From positions 1 to 23,891 of IMG/VR virus record IMGVR_UViG_3300037189_023248: a stretch of 23,891 bases of DNA; one strand, written 5' to 3'. A program made the translations under genes and the position numbers. Each line of letters opens with the position of its first letter. Position 1 is the first letter of the stretch. The DNA is from a virus. The notes below the pieces were generated by a model. That model did not search any database. It was not told the origin of the DNA and saw only the letters and a list, made by a program, of their open reading frames with translations. This document shows positions 6,759 through 21,449 of this stretch, in pieces.

Positions 6759-6956
6759 TCATATTAAAAAACGCTATATATCAAATGCAAAAAAATTTAA
6801 AATACTCATACAATCAACAATTCTTGAAAGTAAATATTCAACGAATCATAAAAATTTCTCCGTGAGAAATAACTAAAGCATAAAAAAACAAAATTTAATC
6901 TTAGCTGAGTTCTAAGCAGAGTGTCTGTACCTCGAAAAATTATAAAGGATGTAAAA
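6759..6956 (+). other. Gap upstream of nrdA, no gene seen
   Basis: About 200 nt of very AT-rich sequence. It holds a 7-bp inverted repeat (ATTTCTC 6854-6860 with GAGAAAT 6864-6870) with no T run after it, a GTAAATA-like box near 6830 and an AAAGGA Shine-Dalgarno just before the nrdA start. I see no convincing gene or clear sigma70 promoter. Confidence 0.4.
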
Positions 6957-8174
6957 ATGGTAAAAATTGATGTAACTAGAGATGAATTATTTTCCGAACA
7001 AGGTTTAGATTTACTAAACAAGTATTATTCAGATGGCAAAGAAGGGGTACAGCGAGCAATAGCACGAGCGGCAATAGCATTCAGTTACGGCGACAAAGAA
7101 CTGGCACAATTCATTTATGACGCAGCAAGTCAGCATCATTTTTTCTACTCTAGTCCTATTTTATCAAATGCACCTGAGGGTCAGTGGGATCCTAATGTAG
7201 ACTACACCAGTAAAGAATTTTGGGCACCTGAAAATAGCGAGGCGCGCCGTTGTGCTTGGTTAGGCGCAAAACCCAAAGCATTGCCAATTAGTTGCTTCTT
7301 AGGTTATGTTGAAGACACCATCTCTGGACAAATTTCCAGCAGCAGCGAACTAGCGCTACTAAGTGTTGCAGGTGGCGGGACAGCACTGCACAACGGCATT
7401 CGTGCTGTAAGTGACAAAGCACCTGGCCCCATTCCTTACATCAAAACCATTGACGGGATCATGGGCTATTATAGGCAAGGCAAGACTCGCCGCGGCAGTT
7501 GTGCTGTATACATGGACATTGATCATCCTGACATACTAGAATTTATTAAAATGCGTACTCCATCGGGCGGAGATACAGCTCGTAAAATTACTAACCGCAA
7601 AGGTGTACACAACGCAGTAAACATCACAAAAGAATTTATTACAGCAGTTAACGAAAACAAACTTTTTGATCTACGTTGCCCTCATGGTGGAGATGTGCGC
7701 GACAGCGTACCTGCCCGTGAACTATGGGAAACCATTCTAGAAACCCGCGAACTCACAGGCGAGCCTTATATTTGGCTCAAGGACAATGCCAATGCTGCAC
7801 TACCTGAAGCGCAAAAGAAACTAGGACTAACCAACCGTGGCAGTAACCTGTGTTTAACTGGCGACACTTTGATTGAAATTTCTGTTCATCCAATAACAGG
7901 TAATGTTGTTAAACTTCCACTAGCAGATTTCATTGAAAAATGGGATCTAGGATATTATGATACTGTGTATGTTAAAACCATCAAGGATGGGCAACTGCAT
8001 TGGGCACAAATTACTGCTGCTGGAAAAACTGGAGACGTTACAGAACTTATCGAAATCGAAACTCCTAGCGGTAAAAAAATAACCTGCACTCCCGAACATA
8101 AGATTTTTACTAAAAATCGTGGGTGGGTAGAAGCCCAACATTTAGTAGAAAGCGATGAGCTATTGGAGGAGTAG
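6957..8174 (+). CDS. nrdA: Ribonucleotide reductase class I large subunit, N-terminal half fused to N-intein
   Basis: Residues 1-298 are the N-terminal part of the class I alpha subunit, which reduces NDPs to dNDPs for phage DNA synthesis. FFYSSPILSNAP (62-73) and PISCFLGY (Cys113, the redox-active active-site cysteine) are visible. From residue 299 the sequence becomes an N-intein beginning CLTGDTLIE and ending at a TAG stop. The ATG at 6957 is chosen because AAAGGA lies 8 nt upstream; a GTG at 6921 would only add 12 residues. The N-terminus lacks the roughly 90-residue ATP-cone of E. coli and T4 NrdA, so dATP feedback through that site is probably missing. The rest of the enzyme is encoded at 9172-10224 and must be joined by protein trans-splicing. 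Confidence 0.93.
   Translation: MVKIDVTRDELFSEQGLDLLNKYYSDGKEGVQRAIARAAIAFSYGDKELAQFIYDAASQHHFFYSSPILSNAPEGQWDPNVDYTSKEFWAPENSEARRCAWLGAKPKALPISCFLGYVEDTISGQISSSSELALLSVAGGGTALHNGIRAVSDKAPGPIPYIKTIDGIMGYYRQGKTRRGSCAVYMDIDHPDILEFIKMRTPSGGDTARKITNRKGVHNAVNITKEFITAVNENKLFDLRCPHGGDVRDSVPARELWETILETRELTGEPYIWLKDNANAALPEAQKKLGLTNRGSNLCLTGDTLIEISVHPITGNVVKLPLADFIEKWDLGYYDTVYVKTIKDGQLHWAQITAAGKTGDVTELIEIETPSGKKITCTPEHKIFTKNRGWVEAQHLVESDELLEE
7851..8171 (+). other. N-intein (107 aa) of split NrdA intein
   Basis: Block A is CLTGDTLIE with Cys1 as the splice nucleophile. Block B is TPEHKIF (Thr and His spaced T-x-x-H), which assists the N-S acyl shift. The length is typical of a natural split N-intein. 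It ends in a stop rather than continuing into an endonuclease domain. Confidence 0.9.
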
Positions 8175-8189
8175 TTTGGTGTTATGAAA

Positions 8190-8233
8190 TTTGGTTCCTT
8201 ACTGGTAAATAAAATAGACAGTAAGGAACCAAA
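8190..8233 (+). promoter_or_regulatory. 15-bp hairpin masking the HNH gene ribosome binding site, with late-type box in loop
   Basis: TTTGGTTCCTTACTG (8190-8204) is the exact reverse complement of CAGTAAGGAACCAAA (8219-8233). The 3' arm contains AAGGA, the Shine-Dalgarno of the endonuclease ATG at 8234, so read-through nrdA mRNA should hide it. The 14-nt loop holds GTAAATA (8205-8211), a variant of the T4 late box. A transcript started from it would begin near 8217, lack the 5' arm and expose the site. Confidence 0.8.
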
Positions 8234-9175
8234 ATGGATTACAAGCAACTTTATAAAAATATGATTCAACTCGCAAGGCAAGAAGATAGAAAAAAACACT
8301 GTGGGATATATTATGAATTACATCACATTGTTCCAGAGTTTATGTTTAAAAATAGAAGAAGAACTGGGCCAAAAGGGCACCTTGAAGGTAATCCTGAATC
8401 TAAAGATAATAAAATTTTGTTAACATTTAAAGAACATCTCCTTGCTCATTATTATCTTTATGAAATATATAAAGGAACTCGGTATGAGTACTCTGCTGGT
8501 TCAGCTTTACAGTTTTTCTTTACTAAGGCAGGTAATAACCATATAAGGCAAGTTGAATTATCAAAAGTTGACGAAAATTTTCTTGAAGAAATGGAATATC
8601 TAAGAAAAATAGGCATTGATAGTATTTCTCAGGCAAGGAAAGGAAAAATGCCTGTAGTTGATGCTGTTACCAGAGAAAAAATTGGTTCGGTTCCTGTGGA
8701 TCATCCACGAGTAAAGTCTGGAGAATGGGTGCATCATTCATCGGGTAAAAAAATTACTGAATCAGCTAGAAGTAATAAAAAATCACAACATAAAGAAAAT
8801 AATAATAACTATAAACCCCTAACTGCTGAGTTAGAGTCTAAAATTTTTGAGTGTATAACAAGAGCAATCGAAGATGATATGTTGGTTAGGAATGTGTTTG
8901 TAAAAAATATCAAAGAATCAATCACTGAGTTTAAAAAAATATCGCATGTATGGATTAATAACCGTTACGGTAGCATACAAAACCTAGTAGATTTGTATAA
9001 TAAAAAATTTGACACTAATATTAAATTTAATCCGTATTACAGATCAAAAGCACAAAGATCTGCCCTTAGAGATCGATCGTCAATCTATATGTGGGTTACA
9101 AACGGCGAAACCAATTTAAGAATTTTTAAAAGTGAAGAGATACCAAATGGATTTAAAAAAGGAAGAATATTATGA
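8234..9175 (+). CDS. Free-standing HNH homing endonuclease
   Basis: A 313-aa protein. Residues 27-72 carry the HNH pattern: YELHHIV (His30-His31), DN (58-59) and KEHLLAH (Glu67-His68 to His72), as in T4-like phage mobile endonucleases. A middle stretch (VPVDHPRVKSGEWVHHSSGK) and a C-terminal WVTNGxxN/IPNGFKKGR motif also recur in such proteins and probably bind DNA. It should make a site-specific cut in nrdA genes lacking the insertion. It lies between the two halves of nrdA, and its stop overlaps the C-intein ATG (ATGA). Expression is probably restricted by the hairpin at 8190-8233. It is more AT-rich than the flanking nrdA exteins, as expected of a mobile gene. Confidence 0.9.
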   Translation: MDYKQLYKNMIQLARQEDRKKHCGIYYELHHIVPEFMFKNRRRTGPKGHLEGNPESKDNKILLTFKEHLLAHYYLYEIYKGTRYEYSAGSALQFFFTKAGNNHIRQVELSKVDENFLEEMEYLRKIGIDSISQARKGKMPVVDAVTREKIGSVPVDHPRVKSGEWVHHSSGKKITESARSNKKSQHKENNNNYKPLTAELESKIFECITRAIEDDMLVRNVFVKNIKESITEFKKISHVWINNRYGSIQNLVDLYNKKFDTNIKFNPYYRSKAQRSALRDRSSIYMWVTNGETNLRIFKSEEIPNGFKKGRIL

Positions 9176-9273
9176 TAAAAATTACTAGAATCAAAGTTGA
9201 AAAAACTCCAGTATACGACATTACAGTACCCGAAACTGAAAGTTTTTTTGCTAACAATGTATTGGTTCATAAC
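9172..9273 (+). other. C-intein (34 aa) of split NrdA intein
   Basis: Block F is VYDITVPETESFFANN and block G is VLVHN followed by Cys+1. The penultimate His33 and terminal Asn34 needed for Asn cyclisation are intact, so trans-splicing should work. Confidence 0.9.
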
Positions 9274-10224
9274 TGCAGTGAAATTAGCCTTAGTACCAAC
9301 TCTGAACGTACTGCTGTGTGCTGTCTTAGCAGCGTTAATTTAGAACGTTATGAAGAATGGAAGGACACAGGTCTAGTTGCTAAACTTACACGATTTTTAG
9401 ATAATGTTATCCAATGGTTTATTGATTGGAGTCCAGCTGAACTACAAAAAACTCGTTTTAGCGCTCAACAAGAACGTGCCCTTGGTATTGGTGCAATGGG
9501 TTGGCACAACTTTCTAATGAGCAAAAACATTCCTTTTGAGGGTGGTGGGTTTGGTAGCGCTACTCAATGGAATCACATTATTTTTTCTCGTATGCACGAA
9601 GAAGCAGTAGCTGAATCCAAGCGTCTAGCTACTGAGCGCGGAGAAAGCCCTGACATGGTTGGTACCGGGCGCCGAAATAGTCATTTGTTTGCTATTGCTC
9701 CTAACGCCAATAGTTCAATCCTATGTAATACTACTCCTAGCATTGAGCCTATGGCCAGTAACGCATACACACAAAAAACACGAAATGGCATTTTTCAAGT
9801 GCGTAATCGCTACTTAGAACCCGTGCTAGAAAAATACGGCACTAATACGCCAGAAACATGGAAAAACATTGAAAAAAACAACGGTTCTGTGCAACATTTG
9901 GTTGAATTATCGCCAGAAGAAAAAGAAGTGTTCAAGACTGCGTGGGAGATTGATCAGCATTGGTTAATTGAACACGCAGAAGCTCGTCAACAGTATATTT
10001 GCCAAAGTCAAAGTCTAAACTTGTTTTTCTTACCCGGAACCGAGCGCGCCTACATCAACAGTGTGCATCTAAAAGCTATTCGTAGTAGTAGTCTAAAGAG
10101 CTTGTATTATTTTAAAACAGGTGCTAAAATAGCAGCTGACACAATTAAAAAAATGCAACGAGTTAAACTAGAAGATTGGAAAGAATCTTCTGAGTCAGAA
10201 ACTTGTGTTGCTTGCGAAGGATAA
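9172..10224 (+). CDS. nrdA: C-intein fused to C-terminal half of ribonucleotide reductase large subunit
   Basis: Residues 1-34 are the C-intein, ending VLVHN; residues 35-350 are the NrdA C-terminal half. Visible class I landmarks are Cys35 in NCSEIS (equivalent to E. coli thiyl-radical Cys439, with the neighbouring Glu of the NxCxE motif), Cys50 (redox partner, Cys462 equivalent), PNANSS, the LYYFKTG pair of radical-transfer tyrosines and the C-terminal CVAC (345-348) that passes electrons from thioredoxin or glutaredoxin. AAGGAAG about 8 nt upstream supports the ATG. After splicing the enzyme would be 614 aa (298 + 316). nrdB follows 12 nt later. Confidence 0.93.
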   Translation: MIKITRIKVEKTPVYDITVPETESFFANNVLVHNCSEISLSTNSERTAVCCLSSVNLERYEEWKDTGLVAKLTRFLDNVIQWFIDWSPAELQKTRFSAQQERALGIGAMGWHNFLMSKNIPFEGGGFGSATQWNHIIFSRMHEEAVAESKRLATERGESPDMVGTGRRNSHLFAIAPNANSSILCNTTPSIEPMASNAYTQKTRNGIFQVRNRYLEPVLEKYGTNTPETWKNIEKNNGSVQHLVELSPEEKEVFKTAWEIDQHWLIEHAEARQQYICQSQSLNLFFLPGTERAYINSVHLKAIRSSSLKSLYYFKTGAKIAADTIKKMQRVKLEDWKESSESETCVACEG

Positions 10225-13145: not shown

Positions 13146-14219
13146 ATGCTATTTGGTTATACAATTTTAGCAACAGCCTTATGCTTGAGCATGGTGGCAG
13201 CATATTATTCTATAGCAGGGCTTACTGCTATTTTTTCTGCTGCTACAATTCCTATAATTATTATGGGAGCAGCTCTTGAATTAGGCAAAATAGTTGCGAC
13301 CGTATTCCTTCATAGGAATTGGAGCAGGCTGAATTGGGGTTTTAAAGGCTACCTGGTACCAGCGGTTGCCTTTTTAATGATGTTAACCAGTTTAGGCATA
13401 TATGGCTTTCTATCAAAAGCACACAGTGATCAAACACTGGTGTCTGGTGATAGTACTAGCCAAGTGGCTATTTTTGATGAACGGATAAAAACGGAAAAGG
13501 ATATTATTGATGCTGCTAGACGCGCTCTTAAACAAATGGATGAAGGTGTTGACCAAATCATGGTCCGATCCAATGACGAGCGTGGAGCCGATAAGTCCGC
13601 CGCCCTCCGTAGAGCACAGCAAAAAGAAAGAAGTCAATTACAGGCTGATATTACTAAAGCGCAAAAATCGATTGCCGCCTTAAATGAACAACGAGCTCCG
13701 CTAGCAGCTAATTTAAGAAAAGTAGAGGCTGAAGTAGGTCCTATTAAATACATTGCTGCTCTCATTTACGGAGATAATCCCGATGCCGGCATACTAGAAA
13801 AATCTGTTCGTTGGGTTATTATTCTTATTGTTGTAGTGTTTGATCCGTTGGCATTATGTTTAATATTAGCAGGTAATCGAGAGTTAGAATGGGCAAAAGA
13901 AGATAGAAAAAAGGCATTAACTAACGAAAAATTAGTACCTAAAGATGAGCAACCTATGCTAGATACACCTTTTCCGATACCTGATGTTCCTGCTACACTA
14001 GAACCTAGCTCAAGTGCGATTGTTGCTAAAATTAAATTTAATAAACTGCGGCTAGGGGCTATTCTAAATAAAGCATTATTCAAAAAATCAAAACCACCAG
14101 AGCCTGCAACAAAAGAAGTTATTGCAGACACTACTAATAGTTCTTTCATTGGCATCCCCGCTGAGCCAGATATACACGTTCCACCTAAATCAGACAAACC
14201 GCATAAGTACGCAACTTGA
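13146..14219 (+). CDS. Four-TM membrane protein with periplasm-or-cytoplasm coiled coil
   Basis: A 357-aa protein with hydrophobic segments at about 3-22, 24-55, 69-90 and 221-243. A long charged coiled coil (about 105-200) lies between the third and fourth segments, and a Pro/Lys-rich soluble tail of 110 residues follows. The strings IPIIIMGAALELGKIVA and WVIILIVVVFDPLAL resemble uncharacterised membrane proteins I recall in T4-like aquatic phages. There is no Shine-Dalgarno. It sits 18 nt upstream of clpX and may be co-transcribed with it. Function is unknown; a stretch-sensor, exclusion or membrane-remodelling role would be speculation. Confidence 0.75.
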   Translation: MLFGYTILATALCLSMVAAYYSIAGLTAIFSAATIPIIIMGAALELGKIVATVFLHRNWSRLNWGFKGYLVPAVAFLMMLTSLGIYGFLSKAHSDQTLVSGDSTSQVAIFDERIKTEKDIIDAARRALKQMDEGVDQIMVRSNDERGADKSAALRRAQQKERSQLQADITKAQKSIAALNEQRAPLAANLRKVEAEVGPIKYIAALIYGDNPDAGILEKSVRWVIILIVVVFDPLALCLILAGNRELEWAKEDRKKALTNEKLVPKDEQPMLDTPFPIPDVPATLEPSSSAIVAKIKFNKLRLGAILNKALFKKSKPPEPATKEVIADTTNSSFIGIPAEPDIHVPPKSDKPHKYAT

Positions 14220-14237
14220 CCTTGTAAAAGCTATCTA

Positions 14238-15404
14238 ATGTCTGAAACTACACCCTCTCAATGTAATTTTTGTGGGAAAAATCATGACCAAGTGGTGAAA
14301 CTAATAGTTTCATCAACTGCTGCAATTTGCAATGAGTGTATTTCATTGTGCACAGATATTCTAAGTAAACAAAGCAAAACTAAACCACAAGAAGAATTTG
14401 ATCTAAATCCTCAAGCAATTTATAACTATATAGACAAGTATGTAATTTCTCAGCGTTATGCTAAAGAAAAATTAGCGGTTTCGGTAATAAATCACTACAA
14501 AAGATGCATGTTTGACGACAAAAACCAAGTAGAAAAAACTAATATACTGTTTTGGGGACCAACTGGCACAGGAAAAACTCTACTGGCCAAAACCATTGCT
14601 GATTATTTGGGCGTGCCTTTTGTGATTATTGACGCCACTACTATTACCGAAGCTGGGTATGTAGGAAACGATGTCGATATAATTATTGACAAATTATACC
14701 ATGCTTCTGAGTTTGATGTGGATCAAACTGAACGTGGAATAGTGTTTATCGACGAAGTTGATAAAATTGCTAGATCATCTGAAACTCCTTCAACCGGCAA
14801 AGACATCAACGGCGAAGGTGTACAACAAGCATTGCTTAAAATGGTAGAAGGTACTACTATTAAATTGTCAAGCCCTAAAAAAGTATTTGGTACTGACTCG
14901 GTAGAAATTAACACAGGTAAAATACTATTTGTAGCATCAGGTGCCTTTGTTGGGTTAGATGAGCTAGCTAAAAAACGTCGAAGCAGTGCAGGTATAGGAT
15001 TTGGAAGCTCAAACTTGTTGCCGACGCAATCAAGGTTTCCTGCAGATCCGGTTGATTTTATTAAGTTTGGAATGATTCCCGAATTCATGGGTCGCTTTCC
15101 TTCTATTGTTCATACAGAGCAACTCACAATAGATGATTTGTTTGAAGTAATAAAAAACAAAAACAACGGTATATTAGAACAGTACAAATTTTATTTTGGC
15201 GCTAGCGCAATCGAATTAGAAATTGATGACGACGGATTAAAAGCAATTGCAGAACATGCAATAAAAATAAAGTTAGGCGCTCGTGGATTAAGATCAATAT
15301 TTGAAATAATTACTCATGACTATCTTTTTAATATTGGTAAATTAATAGAGCAGGATACCAAAAAATTAAAACTAACAAGAGAGGATGTAATAAAATATCT
15401 ATGA
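14238..15404 (+). CDS. clpX: ATP-dependent protease unfoldase ClpX
   Basis: A 388-aa AAA+ unfoldase with the full ClpX plan: an N-terminal C4 zinc domain (Cys9, Cys12, Cys31, Cys34) for substrate and adaptor binding, Walker A GPTGTGKT (107-114), pore-1 loop GYVG (140-143), Walker B FIDEVD (170-175), the IGF loop (253-255) that docks in ClpP, PEFMGR with arginine finger Arg286, and sensor-2 GARGLR (347-352). It is slightly shorter than E. coli ClpX (424 aa), mainly at the C-terminus. With the IGF loop kept and no clpP in the window, it probably works with host ClpP. There is no Shine-Dalgarno before the ATG. It overlaps the bS21 gene by four bases. Confidence 0.95.
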   Translation: MSETTPSQCNFCGKNHDQVVKLIVSSTAAICNECISLCTDILSKQSKTKPQEEFDLNPQAIYNYIDKYVISQRYAKEKLAVSVINHYKRCMFDDKNQVEKTNILFWGPTGTGKTLLAKTIADYLGVPFVIIDATTITEAGYVGNDVDIIIDKLYHASEFDVDQTERGIVFIDEVDKIARSSETPSTGKDINGEGVQQALLKMVEGTTIKLSSPKKVFGTDSVEINTGKILFVASGAFVGLDELAKKRRSSAGIGFGSSNLLPTQSRFPADPVDFIKFGMIPEFMGRFPSIVHTEQLTIDDLFEVIKNKNNGILEQYKFYFGASAIELEIDDDGLKAIAEHAIKIKLGARGLRSIFEIITHDYLFNIGKLIEQDTKKLKLTREDVIKYL

Positions 15405-15646
15405 GTAAATTTAACCCATACGACAGTAAATTAAAAGGAACATTAGTTTATGTTTCCAATGACAATGTCGATCAGGCTTTACGCAAGTTCAAGAAAAAAG
15501 TCATAGACTGTAATTTATTAAAAGATCTACAAGCTCGCGAATGCTACGAAAAACCCAGCATCACACGTAAGGTTAAGGCTAAAGCGGCTCGCAATCGGTG
15601 GCGTCGAAAATTAGGTGCAGATGCGATTCCTACCAAAAAATATTGA
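15401..15646 (+). CDS. rpsU: Ribosomal protein bS21 homologue
   Basis: An 81-aa basic protein matching bS21: VYVSNDNVDQALRKFKKKV (16-34), then LLKDLQARECYEKPS (39-53), and a basic tail with the KxKAxxxRWRRKL pattern (57-71). bS21 sits on the 30S platform near the anti-Shine-Dalgarno end of 16S rRNA and is among the last proteins to join. Phage-borne bS21 is known from pelagiphages and metagenomic phages. The ATG overlaps the clpX stop (ATGA), so the two are coupled. It may replace host bS21 and bias initiation toward phage mRNAs; that effect is inferred. Confidence 0.9.
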   Translation: MSKFNPYDSKLKGTLVYVSNDNVDQALRKFKKKVIDCNLLKDLQARECYEKPSITRKVKAKAARNRWRRKLGADAIPTKKY

Positions 15647-15673
15647 CACTCTTTGAGAGTTGTTGTATAAATA
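15643..15673 (+). promoter_or_regulatory. Hybrid sigma70/late-type promoter of hsp20
   Basis: TTGACA (15643-15648), a 17-nt spacer and TATAAATA (15666-15673), so one box could serve both as sigma70 -10 (TATAAA) and as a T4-late box. The expected start is near 15679. Confidence 0.7.
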
Positions 15674-15733
15674 GTAATGTTGATGCCCGATTGGGGTCGA
15701 CAATGTAATCTTGCTTAAATAAGGAGAAAAAAC
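15666..15733 (+). promoter_or_regulatory. hsp20 leader shared with dnaK leader
   Basis: Blocks ATAAATA, TGATGC, GGGTC, AATCTTGCTTA (15707-15717) and AAGGAGAAA occur in the same order as in 19460-19535 upstream of dnaK. AAGGAG is the Shine-Dalgarno for the ATG at 15734. Confidence 0.65.
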
Positions 15734-16186
15734 ATGACTACATATACACTTCAGGGTTTTGACTTACCCACACTACATCGTAAATTTATTGGCTTTGATC
15801 CACTGTTTGAAGATCTAACACGAGCCTTTCACAACAAAAACGATAACTATCCCCCGTACAACATTGTACGAGTTGACGAAAGTCGTTTTGTTATTGAAAT
15901 AGCAATCGCTGGTTTTCAGGAAAGCGAGCTAGACGTATCACTAACCAACCGTATCTTAAACATCACCGGTAAGCGTCGCATTGATGCAACTGCTAGCGAG
16001 AAAGAATACCTACATCGTGGTATTAGCAGCCGTGATTTTGAGCGTACATTCACACTTGGTGAGCATATGGAAGTCGTTGGTGCATCTGTAAAAAATGGCA
16101 TCCTAACAGTTACATTGGATCAGCAGATTCCAGACGAAGCCAAAACTCGCCGTATTGCTATCAGTTCAGAAAGCACTAGCGGTTGA
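15734..16186 (+). CDS. hsp20: Small heat-shock protein Hsp20 (IbpA-like)
   Basis: A 150-aa holdase. The N-terminal arm (1-40, LHRKFIGFDPLFEDL) resembles IbpA/IbpB. The alpha-crystallin domain spans about 42-130 (YNIVRVDESRFVIEIAIAGF, ending GILTVTL), and the C-terminal IxI motif is IAI (141-143), used for oligomer docking. Such proteins bind unfolding clients and hand them to DnaK. Hsp20 genes are known in cyanophages and other T4-like phages, where they are thought to help virion assembly. The promoter is strong and the leader is shared with dnaK, implying common control. Confidence 0.95.
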   Translation: MTTYTLQGFDLPTLHRKFIGFDPLFEDLTRAFHNKNDNYPPYNIVRVDESRFVIEIAIAGFQESELDVSLTNRILNITGKRRIDATASEKEYLHRGISSRDFERTFTLGEHMEVVGASVKNGILTVTLDQQIPDEAKTRRIAISSESTSG

Positions 16187-16211
16187 CTTTTAGTTAACAC
16201 TAGTTTAATAT
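16183..16211 (+). promoter_or_regulatory. Candidate sigma70 promoter for clpS
   Basis: TTGACT (16183-16188), a 17-nt spacer and TAATAT (16206-16211), overlapping the end of hsp20. The expected start is near 16218, at the foot of the following hairpin. Confidence 0.5.
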
Positions 16212-16215
16212 ACAC

Positions 16216-16243
16216 AAGGAGCGGTGCCAATGCGCTGCTCCTT
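16216..16243 (+). promoter_or_regulatory. Hairpin covering a Shine-Dalgarno upstream of clpS
   Basis: AAGGAGC (16216-16222) pairs perfectly with GCTCCTT (16237-16243) across a 14-nt loop. It is not followed by a T run, so it is not a good terminator. The masked AAGGAG is spaced 8 nt from the mini-ORF ATG at 16230. Confidence 0.6.
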
Positions 16244-16256
16244 ATATGGAATTTAA
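16230..16256 (+). CDS. Eight-codon upstream ORF (MRCSLYGI) before clpS
   Basis: ATG at 16230 follows AAGGAG with ideal 8-nt spacing and reads eight codons to TAA at 16254-16256, two bases before the clpS ATG. clpS itself has no Shine-Dalgarno, so ribosomes finishing this mini-ORF could re-initiate on clpS. No family can be assigned to so short a peptide, and its translation is inferred. Confidence 0.45.
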   Translation: MRCSLYGI

Positions 16257-16258
16257 TA

Positions 16259-16570
16259 ATGACTGCTAACGAAACTGATGTTGCTCAAAAAACAAAAACA
16301 CGCAAGTTATTAAAAGAACCACCAAAATACAAAGTCATTTATCTTAATGATGATGTTACTACAGTAGAATTTGTAGTTGAAACTCTGGTGCAAATTTTTA
16401 ATTACGATCGCCACGATGCTGAAAATAAAGCAATGGAAATAAACCAAAATGGAAGCGGTATTGTAGCTGTACTGCCTTATGAAATTGCTGAACAAAAAGG
16501 TATTGAAGTTACTATGCTAGCAAGGAATAACAATTTTCCATTGCAAGTTCGAATTGAACCAGATTTATAA
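16259..16570 (+). CDS. clpS: ClpS-type N-degron adaptor
   Basis: A 103-aa protein with a flexible basic N-terminal tail (1-20) and the ClpS core: PPKYKVIYLNDD (21-32), TVEFVVE (35-41), then GSGIVAVLPYEIAEQK (65-80) and the closing NNFPLQVRIE. ClpS brings proteins with Leu, Phe, Tyr or Trp at the N-terminus to ClpA. The Asn30-Asp31-Asp32 pocket is kept, but the usual pocket His (E. coli His66) is Asn62, and the gatekeeper Met40 is Val36, so ligand preference may be altered. No clpA is seen here; ClpX of this phage is not the known partner, so host ClpA or a new pairing is implied. Confidence 0.92.
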   Translation: MTANETDVAQKTKTRKLLKEPPKYKVIYLNDDVTTVEFVVETLVQIFNYDRHDAENKAMEINQNGSGIVAVLPYEIAEQKGIEVTMLARNNNFPLQVRIEPDL

Positions 16571-16571
16571 A

Positions 16572-16751
16572 ATGGAAAAAGAAAAAACTGTTAGAGAACA
16601 AATCGACCAATTATTATGGTTTCACGGAATAACAGAGAAAGTTGAGATCGAAACAGAAGTAGAGGATATAATTTTAACTCAACTCAAAGACGAAAAACTT
16701 AATAGAGTATGGGTCGAAGATGGTTCGTTGGTGATAGACTTTAACGACTAA
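16572..16751 (+). CDS. Small acidic hypothetical protein, 59 aa
   Basis: Not recognised. ATG at 16572 begins 1 nt after the clpS stop; a TTG at 16554 inside clpS would add six residues but has no Shine-Dalgarno either. The protein is rich in Glu and Asp (EKVEIETEVEDIIL, then VWVEDGSLVIDF), with alternating strands and helix. It is probably co-translated with clpS. It meets the J-protein gene tail to tail with a 4-base overlap. Confidence 0.65.
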   Translation: MEKEKTVREQIDQLLWFHGITEKVEIETEVEDIILTQLKDEKLNRVWVEDGSLVIDFND

Positions 16752-17335
16752 GGTTGGGGATGTCCTAACATCAAGTTCCATGACATGGAACCATAATGAT
16801 AATCGTTTAATATTTCTAACATAAGATTAAATACTGTCATTCGTCGAGTAAACATTGCTAAATCGTTTTGTCTACGTTCAATTAGATTCTCAACAAAGTT
16901 CTTTAGTAAATTTTCTCCATTATGTGTTTTTAACTGTATTCTGTCTCGAGCAATAACAGCATTGCGAATGTTAGTTCGACAGCGTTCCATGTCTGCTTCT
17001 AGTGTACGAGATGCTTGATTAATATCTGCTTGCATTTTAACAATTAAATCTTCTACCTCACTGTTCAAATCAGGTACATATTGATTAACCATGTTAGAAA
17101 GTCGACCCAGTGCTTCGCTTCGAATACTATTGTCTTGATTAATCTTGCCAGTAGCATCATATTCTTGACGTCGTTCGGGATCACTAAGTACTTCGTAAGC
17201 TAGGTTTATTCGTTTGAATTTTTCTGCATCGCCCCCTCTATCGGGATGATGTAGATGTGCTAGTACGCGGTATTGTTGTTTAATTTGTTCTTGGGTACAT
17301 CCAGGAGCAAGTTCGAGTTCTTGATATAAATTCAT
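16748..17335 (-). CDS. J-domain protein (DnaJ-like co-chaperone)
   Basis: A 195-aa protein. The J domain occupies residues 1-62: LYQELELAPGCTQEQIKQQY, the invariant HPD (30-32) that triggers Hsp70 ATP hydrolysis, and FKRINLAYEVLSDPERRQEYD. There is no Gly/Phe region, zinc finger or DnaJ C-terminal domain. Residues 75-195 look like a helical, partly coiled-coil domain that probably picks the client. Its likely partner is the DnaK at 19536. It is the only gene on the - strand in this block, so it is expressed separately. CTAAATAC (17341-17348 on the - strand) lies 7 nt before the ATG, with no Shine-Dalgarno. Confidence 0.92.
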   Translation of the reverse strand: MNLYQELELAPGCTQEQIKQQYRVLAHLHHPDRGGDAEKFKRINLAYEVLSDPERRQEYDATGKINQDNSIRSEALGRLSNMVNQYVPDLNSEVEDLIVKMQADINQASRTLEADMERCRTNIRNAVIARDRIQLKTHNGENLLKNFVENLIERRQNDLAMFTRRMTVFNLMLEILNDYHYGSMSWNLMLGHPQP

Positions 17336-17340
17336 GTTTT

Positions 17341-17348
17341 GTATTTAG
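17341..17348 (-). promoter_or_regulatory. Late-type promoter box of the J-protein gene
   Basis: Reads CTAAATAC on the - strand; its last AAATA base is 7 nt from the ATG at 17335, predicting a leaderless or nearly leaderless mRNA. Confidence 0.4.
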
Positions 17349-17353
17349 TTTGT

Positions 17354-17445
17354 GGACGGTTGGATGAGTGGCTTAAATCAAGGGTTTGCTAAACCCTCGT
17401 CTGTAGTAATACGGACCGCGAGTTCGAATCTCGCACCGTCCTCCA
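17354..17445 (+). tRNA. tRNA-Ser(GCU)
   Basis: Complete class II cloverleaf with encoded CCA. The acceptor is GGACGGT with ACCGTCC, the D stem GAT/ATC has GG in its loop, and the anticodon arm is AGGGT-TTGCTAA-ACCCT with anticodon GCT at 17388-17390. The long variable arm GTCTGTA/TACGGAC closes on GTAA, and the T arm is GCGAG-TTCGAAT-CTCGC. It would read AGC and AGU. The discriminator base is U rather than the G usual in bacterial tRNA-Ser. Confidence 0.96.
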
Positions 17446-17478
17446 TTTTCATTAAATGCTACTATAAACTGCAAAGGT

Positions 17479-17487
17479 TATAAATAG
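17479..17487 (+). promoter_or_regulatory. T4-late-type promoter box close to start codon
   Basis: TATAAATAG is a full match to the T4 late consensus; its last A of AAATA is 9 nt before the ATG at 17495. Confidence 0.5.
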
Positions 17488-17494
17488 CTTTTAT

Positions 17495-17935
17495 ATGCTA
17501 CATTTAATTAAATCAGATCAAGACCAATACTTTCCTAAACTCAAGGAAGATCCAGTACGCCCTAGTATTGACCACAATAAAAGAATCGGCAATAACAGAG
17601 ATATTTTTGTCCTCAGAAACGAACAAGACGATCCTGAAGCTATTACTTGTGTCAGTTATCAAGACAGCGTACCTACCACAGAGAACGAATTATTTGATGT
17701 TAAGCAAGATCCTGACGTTGCTGTGTTTTATACTATTTGGAGTTATAAACCCGGAGCGGGAAGGAATTTAATTTTAGATGCTGTAAACTATATTAAGGCC
17801 AACAATCCCAGTATAACTCGTTTTGTTACGCTGAGTCCGCCTACAGAAATGGCTCGTCGCTTTCATTTAAAAAACGGAGCTCGAGTGTTTAGAGAAAACG
17901 CAGAAACAATTAATTACGAATACATGCGAGGGTAA
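17495..17935 (+). CDS. GNAT-like protein resembling malonyl-CoA decarboxylase core
   Basis: A 146-aa protein. FYTIWSYKPGAGRNLILDAV (78-97) is like the CoA-binding beta-bulge and helix of GNAT acetyltransferases. RFVTLSPPTEMARRFHLKNG (108-127) resembles the FxTLSP segment of malonyl-CoA decarboxylase, itself a GNAT-fold enzyme. The protein is far shorter than that enzyme and lacks its helical domain, so it is best called a small acyl-CoA-binding GNAT-like protein of unknown substrate. There is no Shine-Dalgarno, and the late-type box is very close to the ATG. The next gene starts 2 nt after the stop. Confidence 0.7.
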   Translation: MLHLIKSDQDQYFPKLKEDPVRPSIDHNKRIGNNRDIFVLRNEQDDPEAITCVSYQDSVPTTENELFDVKQDPDVAVFYTIWSYKPGAGRNLILDAVNYIKANNPSITRFVTLSPPTEMARRFHLKNGARVFRENAETINYEYMRG

Positions 17936-17937
17936 AA

Positions 17938-18120
17938 ATGAAATCTGCATATTTTGAAAACCTTGTAAACAAAGAAAGATTTGTTTGTCCCGACCTCAAA
18001 GATATTAGACTAATTGATGGTATTGAATACATTAGAGTGTTACGCGAGGACGGTCGTCGAGAATGTTTGGTGCGGCGAGACAGTTTGAAGAAAGTCGCAA
18101 AAACAGTCAATAAAATCTAA
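17938..18120 (+). CDS. Small basic hypothetical protein, 60 aa
   Basis: Not recognised. It starts 2 nt after the GNAT-like gene, with GAGGG about 9 nt before the ATG, so the two form an operon. The composition is basic (many Arg and Lys) with a beta-like middle (IRLIDGIEYIRVL) and a helical end; small size and charge would suit binding to nucleic acid or to a partner protein, but nothing shows this. Confidence 0.65.
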   Translation: MKSAYFENLVNKERFVCPDLKDIRLIDGIEYIRVLREDGRRECLVRRDSLKKVAKTVNKI

Positions 18121-18151
18121 ACAACATACTTAAATACTGTGTTTTTACGTC

Positions 18152-18159
18152 TATAAATA
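18152..18159 (+). promoter_or_regulatory. T4-late-type promoter box
   Basis: Exact TATAAATA, 22 nt upstream of the ATG at 18181, with AAAGGAA as Shine-Dalgarno between. A second TTAAATAC lies at 18130. Confidence 0.6.
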
Positions 18160-18180
18160 TTCAATAAAGGAATATATAAT

Positions 18181-19260
18181 ATGGCATACGTTACATTCCC
18201 ACAAGCTGAAATTATATCCACTTTAAAGGCTTTATTCCTTCAAGGTGGATCAAAAATAGGACCAAGCCCCACAGTGTGGATTGCAGGATCGCCTGCAATC
18301 CATGTGGATTTGTTTGGCTCTATCTTAGGGGCTATTGGAAATTTATTTCCTTCAACAATTGCAGTGTTACAAACGCAAATTGCTCAATCACTGATAGATG
18401 CTGGTTTAAGTCCGGAAACAGCTCTTGGATTCGTGACAAATCCTCTTCAAACAGCTAGTGATTTATTTAAAACATCAGTTACTGATCCATTAGAAGCAGC
18501 ATTAAAAGAGGCTGCGGACTCGGTATCTAAAACAGCAACAGACGCATTAAACGGTGCAGTTTTGGAAGCACAAAGTATAGCTGGTCAAATTAACGGAACA
18601 CTGTATAATGTTGAGTTTTCTGATGGAGTACCTACTGGTATCTTATCAAATAACCCCTCGAACGTATTTACTGTACAGAATTTAGCAAATCTACCAGCAG
18701 ATAGTACTATTGATCTTACTAAGATTAATTCTGCAACAAGCGAGTTCCTTAAAAACCAACCTATTCTAATACAAGCAGCTGGAAAAGATCTAAGCAATAT
18801 AGCAACAAAGCTAACAAGTGCTGCAGTAGGTACCGCAAAAGAGCTAGTGCAGAAAGAATTACAAGACACTACTACCAAATACTTTAACGATATAAAAGCT
18901 GAGACTCAGAAATACCAAGCACAGATATATTCTGCTACTAATACCGCCACTATACAAGCACAATCATTTGTGTCAAAGGCCTATGCAGCAGCAGCACCAA
19001 TTGTAAAAGTAAACCAAAATATACAGAATAAATTAGCACAAGCTAGTTTACCAGGATATAGAGCATTGGCTGCTACATTTAGTGCAAATGTCAATCTACC
19101 TGTTGCTAATAAAATTGTAAATCTTGTTGACAATGCGGTTGCACAACAACAAAATACTACAACAGATGGTATAGCTAAACTAGCAGCAACTAAGGCAGCC
19201 GAAGGAGTTAAAACTGTTACTGGTAATATACCTGGAGTCAATCTACGGATTGTGTCATAA
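18181..19260 (+). CDS. Ala-rich probable virion protein, 359 aa
   Basis: Family not recognised. The protein is rich in Ala, Thr, Asn, Gln and Ser. The first 60 residues (VWIAGSPAIHVDLFGSILGA) are mixed, the stretch 85-150 is amphipathic helix, and 190-350 is long Ala/Lys/Gln helices resembling phage tail or tape-type rods. The exact TATAAATA box and good Shine-Dalgarno fit strong late expression. A structural or internal virion role is inferred from composition and promoter only. It is flanked by translation and chaperone genes rather than by other tail genes. Confidence 0.7.
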   Translation: MAYVTFPQAEIISTLKALFLQGGSKIGPSPTVWIAGSPAIHVDLFGSILGAIGNLFPSTIAVLQTQIAQSLIDAGLSPETALGFVTNPLQTASDLFKTSVTDPLEAALKEAADSVSKTATDALNGAVLEAQSIAGQINGTLYNVEFSDGVPTGILSNNPSNVFTVQNLANLPADSTIDLTKINSATSEFLKNQPILIQAAGKDLSNIATKLTSAAVGTAKELVQKELQDTTTKYFNDIKAETQKYQAQIYSATNTATIQAQSFVSKAYAAAAPIVKVNQNIQNKLAQASLPGYRALAATFSANVNLPVANKIVNLVDNAVAQQQNTTTDGIAKLAATKAAEGVKTVTGNIPGVNLRIVS

Positions 19261-19339
19261 TTTTGGTAATATTACAGGTTGCTTAGTGTTAGACTATATA
19301 GTATAGTTATTCACATGCCTTATCGAGTAGGGCAACAAT

Positions 19340-19414
19340 TCTCTCAACCCCTAGACAGCGAGGGCCCGGATTTGTAACCCGGTGAGGAGTGTGCAAGTCA
19401 TTCTGGGAGAACCA
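19340..19414 (+). tRNA. tRNA-Thr(UGU)-like, with degenerate elbow
   Basis: The acceptor TCTCTCA pairs with TGGGAGA (one G-U), with encoded ACCA. The D stem CCCT/AGGG is intact. The anticodon arm CCGGA-TTTGTAA-CCCGG has one A-C mismatch and anticodon TGT at 19373-19375. The T stem is GAGTG/CATTC around TGCAAGT. However, base 8 is A rather than T, the D loop lacks GG, and the T loop has TGC for TTC, so the elbow contacts are weakened. It may be a divergent working tRNA or a decaying one. Confidence 0.6.
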
Positions 19415-19444
19415 ACTTAATAAAAATTATATTAAAAGGTAACA

Positions 19445-19473
19445 TTGACAAACAAATAAGATAAATAATATCG
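19445..19473 (+). promoter_or_regulatory. dnaK promoter region
   Basis: TTGACA (19445-19450) is followed by GATAAATAA (19460-19468, late-type box) and TAATAT (19466-19471, 15-nt spacer) or AATATC (17-nt spacer) as possible -10. The sigma70 spacing is poorer than at hsp20. Confidence 0.5.
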
Positions 19474-19535
19474 CTGATGCTGAACAGTTCGGGTCAGTAA
19501 ACTTAAATCTTGCTTATATTTAAAGGAGAAATAAA
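19460..19535 (+). promoter_or_regulatory. dnaK leader shared with hsp20 leader
   Basis: Contains ATAAATA, TGATGC, GGGTC (19491-19495), AATCTTGCTTA (19506-19516) and AAGGAGAAA (19523-19531) in the same order as the hsp20 leader, ending in the Shine-Dalgarno for the ATG at 19536. Confidence 0.65.
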
Positions 19536-21449
19536 ATGAGTCGAGTAATCGGTATTGACCTTGGTACCACTAACAGTTGCGTAGCCATTGTAGAAGGTGG
19601 AGTAGCTAAGGTAATCGAAAACAGCGAAGGTGCTCGCACTACACCTAGCATTGTTGCTTACGCTAAAGATGAAATCCTAGTAGGTGCATCGGCCAAGCGT
19701 CAAGCAGTAACAAACCCTAAAAACACTATCTATGCTGCCAAGCGTCTAATTGGACGTCGCTTCGAAGAAGAAGCAGTGCAGAAAGATATTAAACTTATGC
19801 CCTATTCTATTGTTCGTGCTGACAATGGCGACGCTTGGGTACAAGTTAATGAAGAAAAACTAGCACCTCCGCAGATTTCAGCCGAAGTACTGCGTAAAAT
19901 GAAACAGACTGCAGAAGATTATCTTGGACATGAAGTTACACAAGCAGTAATTACTGTTCCGGCTTATTTTAACGACAGTCAACGTCAAGCTACTAAAGAC
20001 GCTGGTAAGATTGCAGGACTAGAAGTACTGCGTATTATCAATGAGCCAACTGCTGCTGCACTAGCATATGGTGTAGACAAGTCAGACAAGCGTGATCGCA
20101 AGATTGCTGTGTATGACTTAGGTGGTGGTACATTTGACATCAGCATCATCGAAATTGCTAACGTAGATGGCGACAAGCAGATTGAAGTGCTTTCAACCAA
20201 TGGTGACACATTCCTAGGTGGCGAGGACTTTGACCAGCGCATTATGGACTATCTAGTTGACGAGTTTAAGAAAGAGCAAGGTATTGATCTTAAAAACGAC
20301 GTACTAGCACTACAACGTCTAAAGGATGCTGCAGAAAAAGCAAAGATTGAGCTAAGTAACTCTGGTCAAACAGAAGTCAATCTGCCTTACGTTACTGCCG
20401 ATGCGTCCGGTCCTAAGCACTTGGTAGTTAAACTATCTCGTGCTAAGTTGGAAGACATGGTCGATGATCTTATTGAGCGTAGTTTAGCACCATGCCGTCA
20501 AGCTATGGCTGATGCTAAGGTTACTGCCGCAGACATCGATGAGGTTATCTTAGTAGGTGGTCAAACACGCATGCCTAAGGTACAGGCTGCAGTTGAGTCA
20601 TTATTTGGTAAAACTCCGCGTAAAGATGTTAATCCCGACGAGGCGGTTGCTGCTGGTGCTGCTGTACAGGGTGCTGTACTAAGTGGTGATCGCAATGACG
20701 TTCTTCTACTTGACGTTACTCCATTAAGCCTAGGAATTGAAACACTAGGCGGTGTAATGACCAAGTTGATTCAAAAGAACTCAACTATCCCGACCAAAGC
20801 TAACCAAACCTTTAGTACCGCAGATGATAATCAGCCTGCTGTTACTATCAAAGTTTACCAAGGTGAGCGTGAGTTTGTTCGCTATAATAAACTACTTGGC
20901 GAGTTTACGCTTGGTGATATTCCGCCTGCACCACGCGGACAACCACAAATTGAAGTTCAATTGGACATTGATGCCAATGGTATTCTCAGTGTTAGTGCTA
21001 AAGACAAAAACACTGGTAAAGAAAACAAAATTACCATTAAAGCTAACAGTGGTTTGAGCGATGCCGAAATTGCACAAATGGTCAAAGAAGCTGAGGAAAA
21101 TGCTGAATCAGATAAAAAAGAGCGTGAACTAGTTGATGCTCGTAACAATGCTGAAAGCACACTAAACGGTATGCGTAAAGAATTTGCTAAGTACAGCGAA
21201 AAAATGGAAGACGCAGATCGTACTAAATTTGAAGATGCAATGAAAGCTGTAGAAACAGCTATCGCAGGAGATGATCCTAAAGCAATCCAAGACAGCATTC
21301 CACCATTGTACGAAGCTAGTAACCCGCTTTATAAAATTAAGACAGAAGCGGAAAAGCCTGCTGAAGCACCAGCTGAAGGTGCGACCCAAACAGAATCAAC
21401 TACAGCAGATCCAAATGTTGTAGATGCTGAATTTAAAGAAACCAAATAA
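19536..21449 (+). CDS. dnaK: Full-length Hsp70 chaperone DnaK
   Basis: A 637-aa protein, the normal bacterial length, with no break. It has the ATPase phosphate-1 motif [10 protein letters not shown] (5-14), phosphate-2 [10 protein letters not shown] (191-200), the adenosine motif [12 protein letters not shown] (338-349) and the interdomain linker VLLLD (388-392). The substrate-binding domain (about 393-505), helical lid (to about 605) and C-terminal tail NVVDAEFKE complete it. It binds and releases unfolded hydrophobic segments using ATP, helped by a J-protein and GrpE. Strings such as [11 protein letters not shown] and LAPCRQAM recall betaproteobacterial DnaK, suggesting capture from such a host. 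A J-protein is 2 kb upstream; no grpE is seen, so host GrpE is presumably used. It is monocistronic, with a strong terminator after it. Confidence 0.97.

Follow-up and report, generated by a model that had tools for sequence, protein, structure and literature searches.

The DNA analyzed here is the virus record IMGVR_UViG_3300037189_023248 from IMG/VR (23,891 bases; referred to below, as a whole, as the window), belonging to a phage described as freshwater. It carries genes encoding the unfoldase ClpX, ribosomal protein bS21, the small heat-shock protein Hsp20, the adaptor ClpS, a J-domain protein (J-protein) and DnaK. A preliminary description based on the sequence alone took these six genes to form a proteostasis module, and all of them were confirmed as full-length open frames at the positions it gave, based on the list of open reading frames (ORFs) and Pfam matches. 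The presence of a ROSE-like leader on both chaperone genes, often located behind late promoter boxes, is a stronger find than the gene module: the Hsp20 and DnaK leaders share a predicted two-hairpin 5' layout, which is a layer of control overlooked in that description. The features of the locus are as follows (aa, amino acids; R1 is a covariance model described below).

13146..14219, plus strand: membrane/coiled-coil protein (weak DUF4407 match), the constant upstream neighbor of ClpX, overlooked in the preliminary description.
14238..15404, plus strand: ClpX unfoldase (Pfam AAA_2 9e-30, zf-C4_ClpX 2.5e-12), with an IGF ClpP-docking loop and an altered RKH loop.
15401..15646, plus strand: ribosomal protein bS21 (Pfam PF01165 5.9e-13), with a 4-base overlap with ClpX.
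15666..15673, plus strand: T4-type late promoter box TATAAATA for Hsp20, exact match.
15677..15739, plus strand: ROSE-like leader of Hsp20, comprising the start codon and two hairpins, the second of which (hairpin II) covers the Shine-Dalgarno.
15734..16186, plus strand: Hsp20 small heat-shock protein (Pfam 3.5e-18, phrog_432 6.7e-38).
16259..16570, plus strand: ClpS adaptor (Pfam 1e-25), with Asn at the His66 position and Val at the Met40 position.
16554..16751, plus strand: 65-aa ORF overlapping ClpS, with no family match (Pfam/phrog) and a 51% identical match in locus L003, placed elsewhere.
16748..17335, minus strand: J-domain protein (HPD) with a helical C-terminal half (Pfam 1.7e-21), a convergent neighbor.
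17354-17445, on the strand opposite to the J-protein: tRNA-Ser(GCT), just upstream of the J-protein start.
19460..19467, plus strand: late promoter box GATAAATA for DnaK, with one mismatch; position derived by hand.
19471..19541, plus strand: ROSE-like leader of DnaK (Rfam ROSE_3 and R1 matches).
19536..21449, plus strand: full-length DnaK (Hsp70; Pfam 1.1e-257), belonging to a phage clade in the tree.

A head-to-tail series of genes separated by short gaps or overlaps extends from 13146 to 16751 (membrane/coiled-coil protein, ClpX, bS21, Hsp20, ClpS, and the 65-aa ORF), and the tight run in the window is limited to ClpX-bS21-Hsp20-ClpS(-orf65). The J-protein gene lies outside this run, on the minus strand and convergent with it. 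DnaK is located about 3 kb past ClpS; the J-protein gene and three further ORFs, one acetyltransferase-like and the others of 60 and 359 aa, lie in between.

Virus contigs were searched separately with ClpX (29 loci), ClpS (the best 80 of 580), DnaK (the best 80 of 339), the J-protein (38), and Hsp20 (4), while 18 loci resulting from a neutral phage gene scan, mostly on short contigs, were left out of the counts. Near-identical loci were removed before the linkage was counted (ClpX from 29 to 19, DnaK to 57, and ClpS to 53), and each count covers only the loci with sufficient flank. Around ClpX, the membrane protein was found upstream in 19/19 loci, bS21 within 400 bp downstream in 16/18, Hsp20 within 3 kb in 15/16, and ClpS in 16/16; the order is kept, Hsp20 being ahead of ClpS in 15/15, and DnaK occurred within 8 kb in 0/13. 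Around DnaK, Hsp20 was present within 400 bp in 47/51 loci, ClpS within 2.5 kb in 39/43, bS21 upstream in 27/42, and ClpX within 10 kb in 8/32. The loci anchored on ClpS contained Hsp20 in 49/49, ClpX in 30/37, bS21 in 30/40, and DnaK in 6/40 cases. At locus L133, all six genes are contiguous in the order membrane protein-ClpX-bS21-DnaK-Hsp20-ClpS. Among isolated phages, the order is ClpX-bS21-x-x-Hsp20-ClpS in PA5oct and membrane protein homolog, ClpX, x, ClpS in SCTP-2, and in Sinorhizobium phage Phosso the order of the block is kept, spread across 17 kb. The genes are thus not scattered in every relative, since the neighborhood is conserved across loci, and the linkage counts bear out the idea of a module in the case of ClpX-bS21-Hsp20-ClpS and, in the relatives, DnaK, but not in that of the J-protein. 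Judging from the sequences compared, the run membrane protein-ClpX-bS21-Hsp20-ClpS, with DnaK as an optional member after bS21, is conserved, and the view that these genes form a real phage neighborhood is supported.

Whether a contig artefact or bacterial contamination might have made the cluster was also considered, as IMG/VR includes some misassigned contigs. The DnaK of the window shares 99.5% identity with its counterpart in a second contig, 91% with that of locus L112, 77.5% with the next viral DnaK, and 72% with the best bacterial DnaK among the matches listed, this last figure being the point that speaks for contamination. However, the second contig (IMGVR_UViG_3300032334_002061) shows 99.84% identity to the window over 17.7 kb, including DnaK, and a further 11.0 kb stretch of it, reaching the window start, is 99.90% identical; the same gene order recurs in many contigs and in isolated PA5oct. 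In a survey of 50 relatives of at least 70 kb, most of which were picked for carrying ClpX, ClpS, or DnaK, the Gp23 capsid protein was over the cut-off in 16/50, as compared with 0/14 control bacteria and archaea, and GrpE was found in 0/50. Gp23 was used here because the tail sheath family PF04984, tried as a phage marker, was matched in 0/50 relatives. A gp55-type late sigma factor was identified in 14/50 relatives and 0/14 controls. The locus therefore does not have the makeup of a bacterial chimera, and on present evidence an artefact is judged to be refuted, next to no probability being left to it.

In the window, the pattern CTTGCTTA..AAGGAG was found exactly twice, ahead of Hsp20 and DnaK, whereas 0.01 occurrences were expected. 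In both leaders, a UUGCU stands opposite the Shine-Dalgarno (UUGCU..AGGAG) and is paired with it in the predicted folds. The top Rfam match in searches on short stretches was in both cases the thermoregulator ROSE_3 (RF02523), with 34.8 bits (E=3.8e-6) for the Hsp20 leader and 30.8 bits (E=9.8e-5) for that of DnaK. When the 50 whole contigs were searched with ROSE_3, 9 matches at E <= 0.001 were obtained in 8 contigs, as against 0/14 controls, and these matches precede Hsp20 (6), DnaK (1), Cpn10 (1), and an 8-codon ORF (1). In the relatives, TTGCT..AGGA occurs ahead of Hsp20 in 84/135 cases and DnaK in 45/68, and it is rare before the other block genes (ClpS 1/134, ClpX 0/71, bS21 0/112). It was also observed at 7/106 membrane-protein starts.

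The structure of the leaders was studied on an alignment (A3) made blind to structure and comprising 70 leaders hand-picked from 117 non-redundant ones, all of which were chosen for TTGCT..AGGA. Since RNAalifold gave just 3 pairs, the two-hairpin structure was assigned by hand, based on the Rfam layout and the alignment, and the pairs were then counted. In A3, 87.2% of the cells were paired, vs. 80.0% after shuffling, and changes on both sides of a pair numbered 104, vs. 37.4 in shuffled data (a level reached in 0/500 shuffles) and 10-21 with slid partners. Hairpin I carries all this covariation (104 vs. 36.9 shuffled, 0/500). A cruder, anchor-based pairing test, in which 98/117 leaders could be placed, gave 379 paired; the shuffled figure was 285.5, and the highest value among 1000 shuffles was 326. 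A conserved leader with two predicted hairpins of the ROSE type is therefore present directly before Hsp20 and DnaK, and it is from its anatomy that we infer thermosensing.

The covariance model R1 was built from the A3 leaders and run on 82 hand-picked sources around blocks (1.49 Mb). At a threshold of E <= 0.1 it yielded 122 matches, none of them on the minus strand, and 115 of these precede Hsp20 (61) or DnaK (54); of the 61 assignments to Hsp20, 25 were made by pattern and 36 by reading N-termini. The window leaders scored 76.2 bits (Hsp20) and 54.7 bits (DnaK), near-identical copies from locus L002 being present in the model. Counted by source, 56/73 Hsp20 and 52/61 DnaK starts were matched. 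Of the other seven matches, two precede Cpn10 genes, two phasin-like genes, and one a 5-codon ORF located just downstream of DnaK; the remaining two have E values of 0.001-0.01. The Cpn10 matches belong to the kindred contigs L148 and L149 (Pfam Cpn10 2.2e-22), and the phasin-like ones lie at L070 16659-16730 and L076 20116-20185, the L070 gene showing a below-cut-off match to Phasin_2 (Pfam E=0.003). Fifty-two other phage sources (773 kb) gave a single match (E=0.019), as did 80 bacterial dnaK loci (E=0.44). The search on 50 bacterial genomes (0/50) was run with strict filters and no positive control and is uninformative about ROSE elements in hosts. In an unfiltered search on eight isolate stretches (70 kb), R1 matched directly before Hsp20 in Pelagibacter phage HTVC103P (E=1.6e-9), the unverified record Y7 (1.1e-5), Phage C48C1 (2.2e-5), PA5oct (1.5e-4, or 0.003 in the 82-source search), and, weakly, S-CAM1 (0.022), and the 82-source search gave E=1.2e-4 before Hsp20 in Phosso. 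A leader match followed by an 8-codon ORF, with no DnaK, was also observed between bS21 and Hsp20 at L359 176-239 (G020, the contig of L068), which is the site where DnaK sits in other phages; a gene may have been lost here, leaving this match behind.

The motif TATAAATA, which we take to be the T4-type late promoter box, was found upstream of 35/138 Hsp20 and 33/70 DnaK genes in the relatives (1.6 expected in each case) and 12/110 membrane-protein genes (1.0 expected), while the corresponding figures were 0/76 for ClpX, 0/114 for bS21, and 2/137 for ClpS. After de-duplication at 90%, the counts were 24/100 (Hsp20), 21/44 (DnaK), and 12/105 (membrane protein), and in this de-duplicated set the motif was absent from the opposite strand and from the inner stretch tested. 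One match in the window lies about 60 bp before Hsp20. A scan for sigma-70 promoters gave 33 sites, vs. 30.2 expected. In the 55 leaders where both were found (not de-duplicated), the box is 8-11 nucleotides away from the hairpin I core, a distance which, given the spacing of T4 late promoters, would place the start of hairpin I at the 5' terminus of the mRNA or close to it.

These boxes and the stable hairpin at or near the predicted 5' end of the mRNA are what might be expected if the genes were a late virion-assembly toolkit linked by late transcription alone, the leader serving as a stable 5' end with a strong Shine-Dalgarno which raises the output; the bS21 genes of phages have also been reported to be transcribed late (PMC9723584). 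However, ClpX, bS21, and ClpS have no such leader, and hairpin II masks the Shine-Dalgarno instead of exposing it, which makes this explanation improbable in our opinion.

The phage leader closely resembles the short ROSE element of Pseudomonas ibpA, which has two hairpins in a 5' untranslated region (UTR) of 61-62 nucleotides; hairpin II, where U(U/C)GCU faces the Shine-Dalgarno, melts while hairpin I stays (PMC3669281). Both have two hairpins, a UTR of about 60 nucleotides, UUGCU opposite the Shine-Dalgarno, and a small heat-shock gene downstream. The phage leader differs from it in that it is associated with a T4-type late promoter rather than sigma32, and in that it also occurs before DnaK and, in one kindred contig pair, before Cpn10. 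According to an account from 2014 (PMC4166951), ROSE elements invariably accompany small heat-shock genes of bacteria, so that the Hsp20 placement fits the class as stated in the available text of that article and the DnaK placement adds to it. Two RNA thermometers have been described in phages, those of lambda cIII and SP-beta blyA (PMC10586365, PMC4166951): the latter is a fourU element and the former shuts translation with heat, and in the accounts available neither of them controls a chaperone. Chaperone-bearing phages and ROSE elements are both already known, and searches of the open literature (subscription papers and preprints not being covered) brought up no description of ROSE elements in phages or upstream of DnaK.

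Several observations weigh against a heat-responsive element of this class. Both window leaders score under the ROSE_3 gathering score of 43, and they are therefore named ROSE-like here rather than members of RF02523; at the Rfam gathering score, the whole window yields the tRNA alone, and 0/50 contigs are over the ROSE_3 cut-off, all 9 matches lying below it. ROSE_3 matched neither the PA5oct leader (up to E=5) nor those of HTVC103P, C48C1, and S-CAM1 (up to E=0.05). As for R1, it was trained on leaders of this kind and applied to the surroundings of the blocks rather than to whole contigs, and among its 122 matches, 74 are outside the training alignment, many of these being kin. R1 gave no match in 17/73 Hsp20 and 9/61 DnaK sources, in some cases due to differing start calls, and the DnaK genes of three other huge phages (L348-L350) had no R1 match in their vicinity. 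The fold z-scores of the leaders are weak, and hairpin II shows no both-side changes, its constancy being partly built in by the choice of leaders. As regards the late boxes, other A/T 8-mers are common too (AATATAAT before ClpS in 23/101 cases and TAATAAAT before Hsp20 in 16/100), and the four matches of TATAAATA in the window are not above chance, since 29/100 shuffles reach this number.

Between 5 and 50 C, the computed opening of the Shine-Dalgarno rises from 0.06 to 0.39 in the window Hsp20 leader, from 0.03 to 0.59 in the L133 DnaK leader, and from 0.47 to 0.82 in that of PA5oct. Also to be counted against heat sensing, it is flat in the window DnaK leader (0.43-0.53) and falls in the L054 Hsp20 leader (0.50 to 0.42) and in that of Phosso (0.38 to 0.22), and it rises in a control nrdB leader (0.22 to 0.43). 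The folding program used does not treat non-canonical pairs. Such pairs are present in ROSE elements (PMC4166951).

The lack of a clear temperature response in the computed ensembles, together with the fact that the covariation is in hairpin I and not in the Shine-Dalgarno hairpin, could be accounted for by assuming that the leader is a translational operator, binding a phage or host protein or responding to magnesium or the ribosome supply, which co-regulates the chaperones and owes its ROSE shape to descent from a bacterial hsp20. We regard this as unlikely: UUGCU opposite the Shine-Dalgarno is the signature of ROSE (PMC3669281), it is found before Hsp20 and DnaK in the proportions given above, and the leader matches stand mostly before chaperone genes, as heat control predicts.

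The origin of DnaK was investigated by means of a tree, the only one built for the proteins of the block, which included 51 viral rows and 42 bacterial rows thinned from the best 80 bacterial matches. The 51 viral DnaKs make up one side of a branch (Shimodaira-Hasegawa-like approximate likelihood ratio test value 98) inside the Betaproteobacteria. This fits a single capture followed by life within phages, and since the viral clade sits inside the Betaproteobacteria, the hosts are likely to be betaproteobacterial. One DnaK was found to be in two pieces about 1.1 kb apart, as if an element had been inserted (G027 113284-116218, the contig of L104). GroES-like co-chaperonin genes were also observed near the DnaK block at L116 5584-5874 (judged by eye), L148 2298, and L149 7976.

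Among the 50 long relatives, DnaK was present in 19 and ClpX in 37. The two are often apart: ClpX was found in 8/19 DnaK-bearing vs. 29/31 DnaK-free contigs, in a sample picked by these very genes. This hints at a replacement of ClpX by DnaK and does no more than hint at it, because the sampling of contigs was not neutral. ClpP is encoded by 32/50 relatives, 14 of which carry a second, divergent ClpP; one of the two paralogs is canonical and the other divergent (E about 1e-30), they are often about 2 kb apart (L332-L347), and Ser-His-Asp was aligned in all 23 ClpP-like proteins checked. The model in which ClpX works with host ClpP is weakened, because the relatives encode ClpP and a host enzyme is not required. 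A protein with a Clp_N domain (ClpA-type) was also identified in 32/50 relatives and could be a partner of ClpS.

The J-protein does not belong to the run. It is on the opposite strand in the window. In the long relatives, 32/50 of which have a J-domain, the J-domain gene lies 0.8-1.4 kb from the ClpA-type N-domain in 32/32 cases, and in all 26 contigs that also carry ClpX it is separated from ClpX by 24.8 kb or more. The 260 kb contig of L195 (G050) carries two J-proteins, one beside the ClpA-type protein and another of the window type, near homologs of the 146-aa and 60-aa ORFs of the window, and shows no DnaK match. The window J-protein consists of a J domain, the HPD of which is invariant across 9 aligned sequences including the window, and a helical C-terminal half (model with a predicted local distance difference test, pLDDT, of 86); its best matches in a fold search were J domains (best E=0.0016, none at E <= 0.001). 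The J-protein of phage RB43 reportedly acts on host DnaK; that of the window is likewise a phage J-domain protein, but the window phage has its own DnaK.

The ClpX motifs said to be intact (Walker A/B, GYVG, IGF) are so, as are the zinc cysteines, in a motif alignment of 75 distinct phage ClpX sequences including that of the window; the RKH loop, which may affect tag choice, reads PKKVFG in the window, while the RKH string is present in 45/75 phage ClpX. The match of bS21 to PF01165 reached 48.8 bits vs. a cut-off of 27, and that of DnaK to HSP70 spans positions 1-594 of 599, in agreement with a full-length protein. In ClpS, Asn34 and Asp35 are invariant in 135 sequences and both are kept in the window, while the His66 position is Asn (His in 130/135) and the Met40 position is Val (Met in 99/135). 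These positions bind the N-degron, and His66 binds the alpha-amino group. Because His66 is replaced by Asn, the window protein was classed as a ClpS-fold protein in which N-degron binding is uncertain. The membrane protein shows a below-cut-off match to DUF4407 (Pfam E=0.002), its model is all-helical (mean pLDDT 76), and the 7 matches at E <= 0.001 obtained in a fold search included no named protein.

Some of these genes had been thought to be rarely reported in phages, which is partly outdated. Moraphages are large aquatic phages with DnaK, DnaJ, ClpA, and, in some of them, Hsp20 (PMC12619734); jumbo phages with ClpX, ClpS, and ClpA have been described (PMC7824862, PMC6102473); and bS21 was found in phages near Hsp20 (n=127) and two Clp genes (n=50, 47) (Chen et al., 2022; PMC9723584). 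The new phages of Chen et al. infect Bacteroidetes, and the gene order of the present block, the presence of DnaK in it, and an RNA leader are not described in the available portions of that paper (PMC9723584). The DnaK of moraphages comes mostly from Flavobacteriaceae (PMC12619734), whereas the one described here is part of a conserved block and traces to Betaproteobacteria. PA5oct (Arenbergviridae) resembles the window in its gene order and in the R1 match before Hsp20, and differs from it in being absent from the 43 records in which DnaK was matched and in having no ROSE_3 match.

Very improbable, in our view, is the idea of a counter-defence function, whereby the chaperones would hide or supply clients watched by host defences, and ClpX and ClpS would remove host defence proteins. 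The NLR-like bNACHT25 reportedly needs DnaJ. A function of this kind has been proposed for phage chaperones (PMC12619734), but no defence gene or target was seen in the block (no defence library being run), and the heat-type leader and late boxes favor the folding of late products.

The window also codes for nucleotide metabolism, lysis, homing, and tail-like genes. NrdA is distributed over two ORFs (6921-10224), the N part of which is intein-splicing (Pfam Intein_splicing 1.1e-7, below cut-off), with a homing-endonuclease gene (8234-9175, phrog_655) between them, an arrangement suggestive of a split intein that encloses a free-standing endonuclease gene. The corresponding parts of NrdA are directly adjacent in the relatives L004 and L005, where no endonuclease match was obtained. 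The ORF at 17495-17935 matches the C-terminal part of malonyl-CoA decarboxylase (GNAT-like; Pfam 2.3e-7) and lies near the block in some relatives. The gap between Hsp20 and ClpS (16187-16258) contains a strong GC-rich hairpin, and 111/125 distinct gaps at this place in the relatives fold below -9 kcal/mol (no shuffled control). This hairpin may serve as a terminator or a processing site, or it may restrain ClpS.

All in all, the locus is probably a proteostasis block, expressed late and gated by heat, of large T4-like phages from fresh water. The mRNA would be made by the late sigma factor, and the spacing of the late box, which is often constant, would put the leader at or near the 5' end. 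In the cold, hairpin II would pair UUGCU with the Shine-Dalgarno and hold down translation, and on warming, it would open and the phage's own Hsp20 (a holdase) and DnaK would be made, their output being timed to the greatest risk of misfolding of late phage proteins. ClpX and ClpS, having no leader, would be made ungated and contribute to turnover with host or phage ClpP/ClpA, and bS21 would join the host ribosomes late. DnaK would have been captured once from a betaproteobacterium, inserted into the block within phages, and given a leader of the Hsp20 type.

Taken one step further, a single ROSE-type design at the 5' ends of late mRNAs might have spread from Hsp20 to the captured DnaK, Cpn10, and a phasin-like gene, making up a heat-shock regulon run by the phage, in which the phage and not the host times the chaperones during virion production; we give this almost an even chance. 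If this is true, there are viruses with a post-transcriptional heat-shock regulon of their own, and the leader would explain the use that phages make of chaperone genes. The finding of the leader bears on how water temperature shapes infection.

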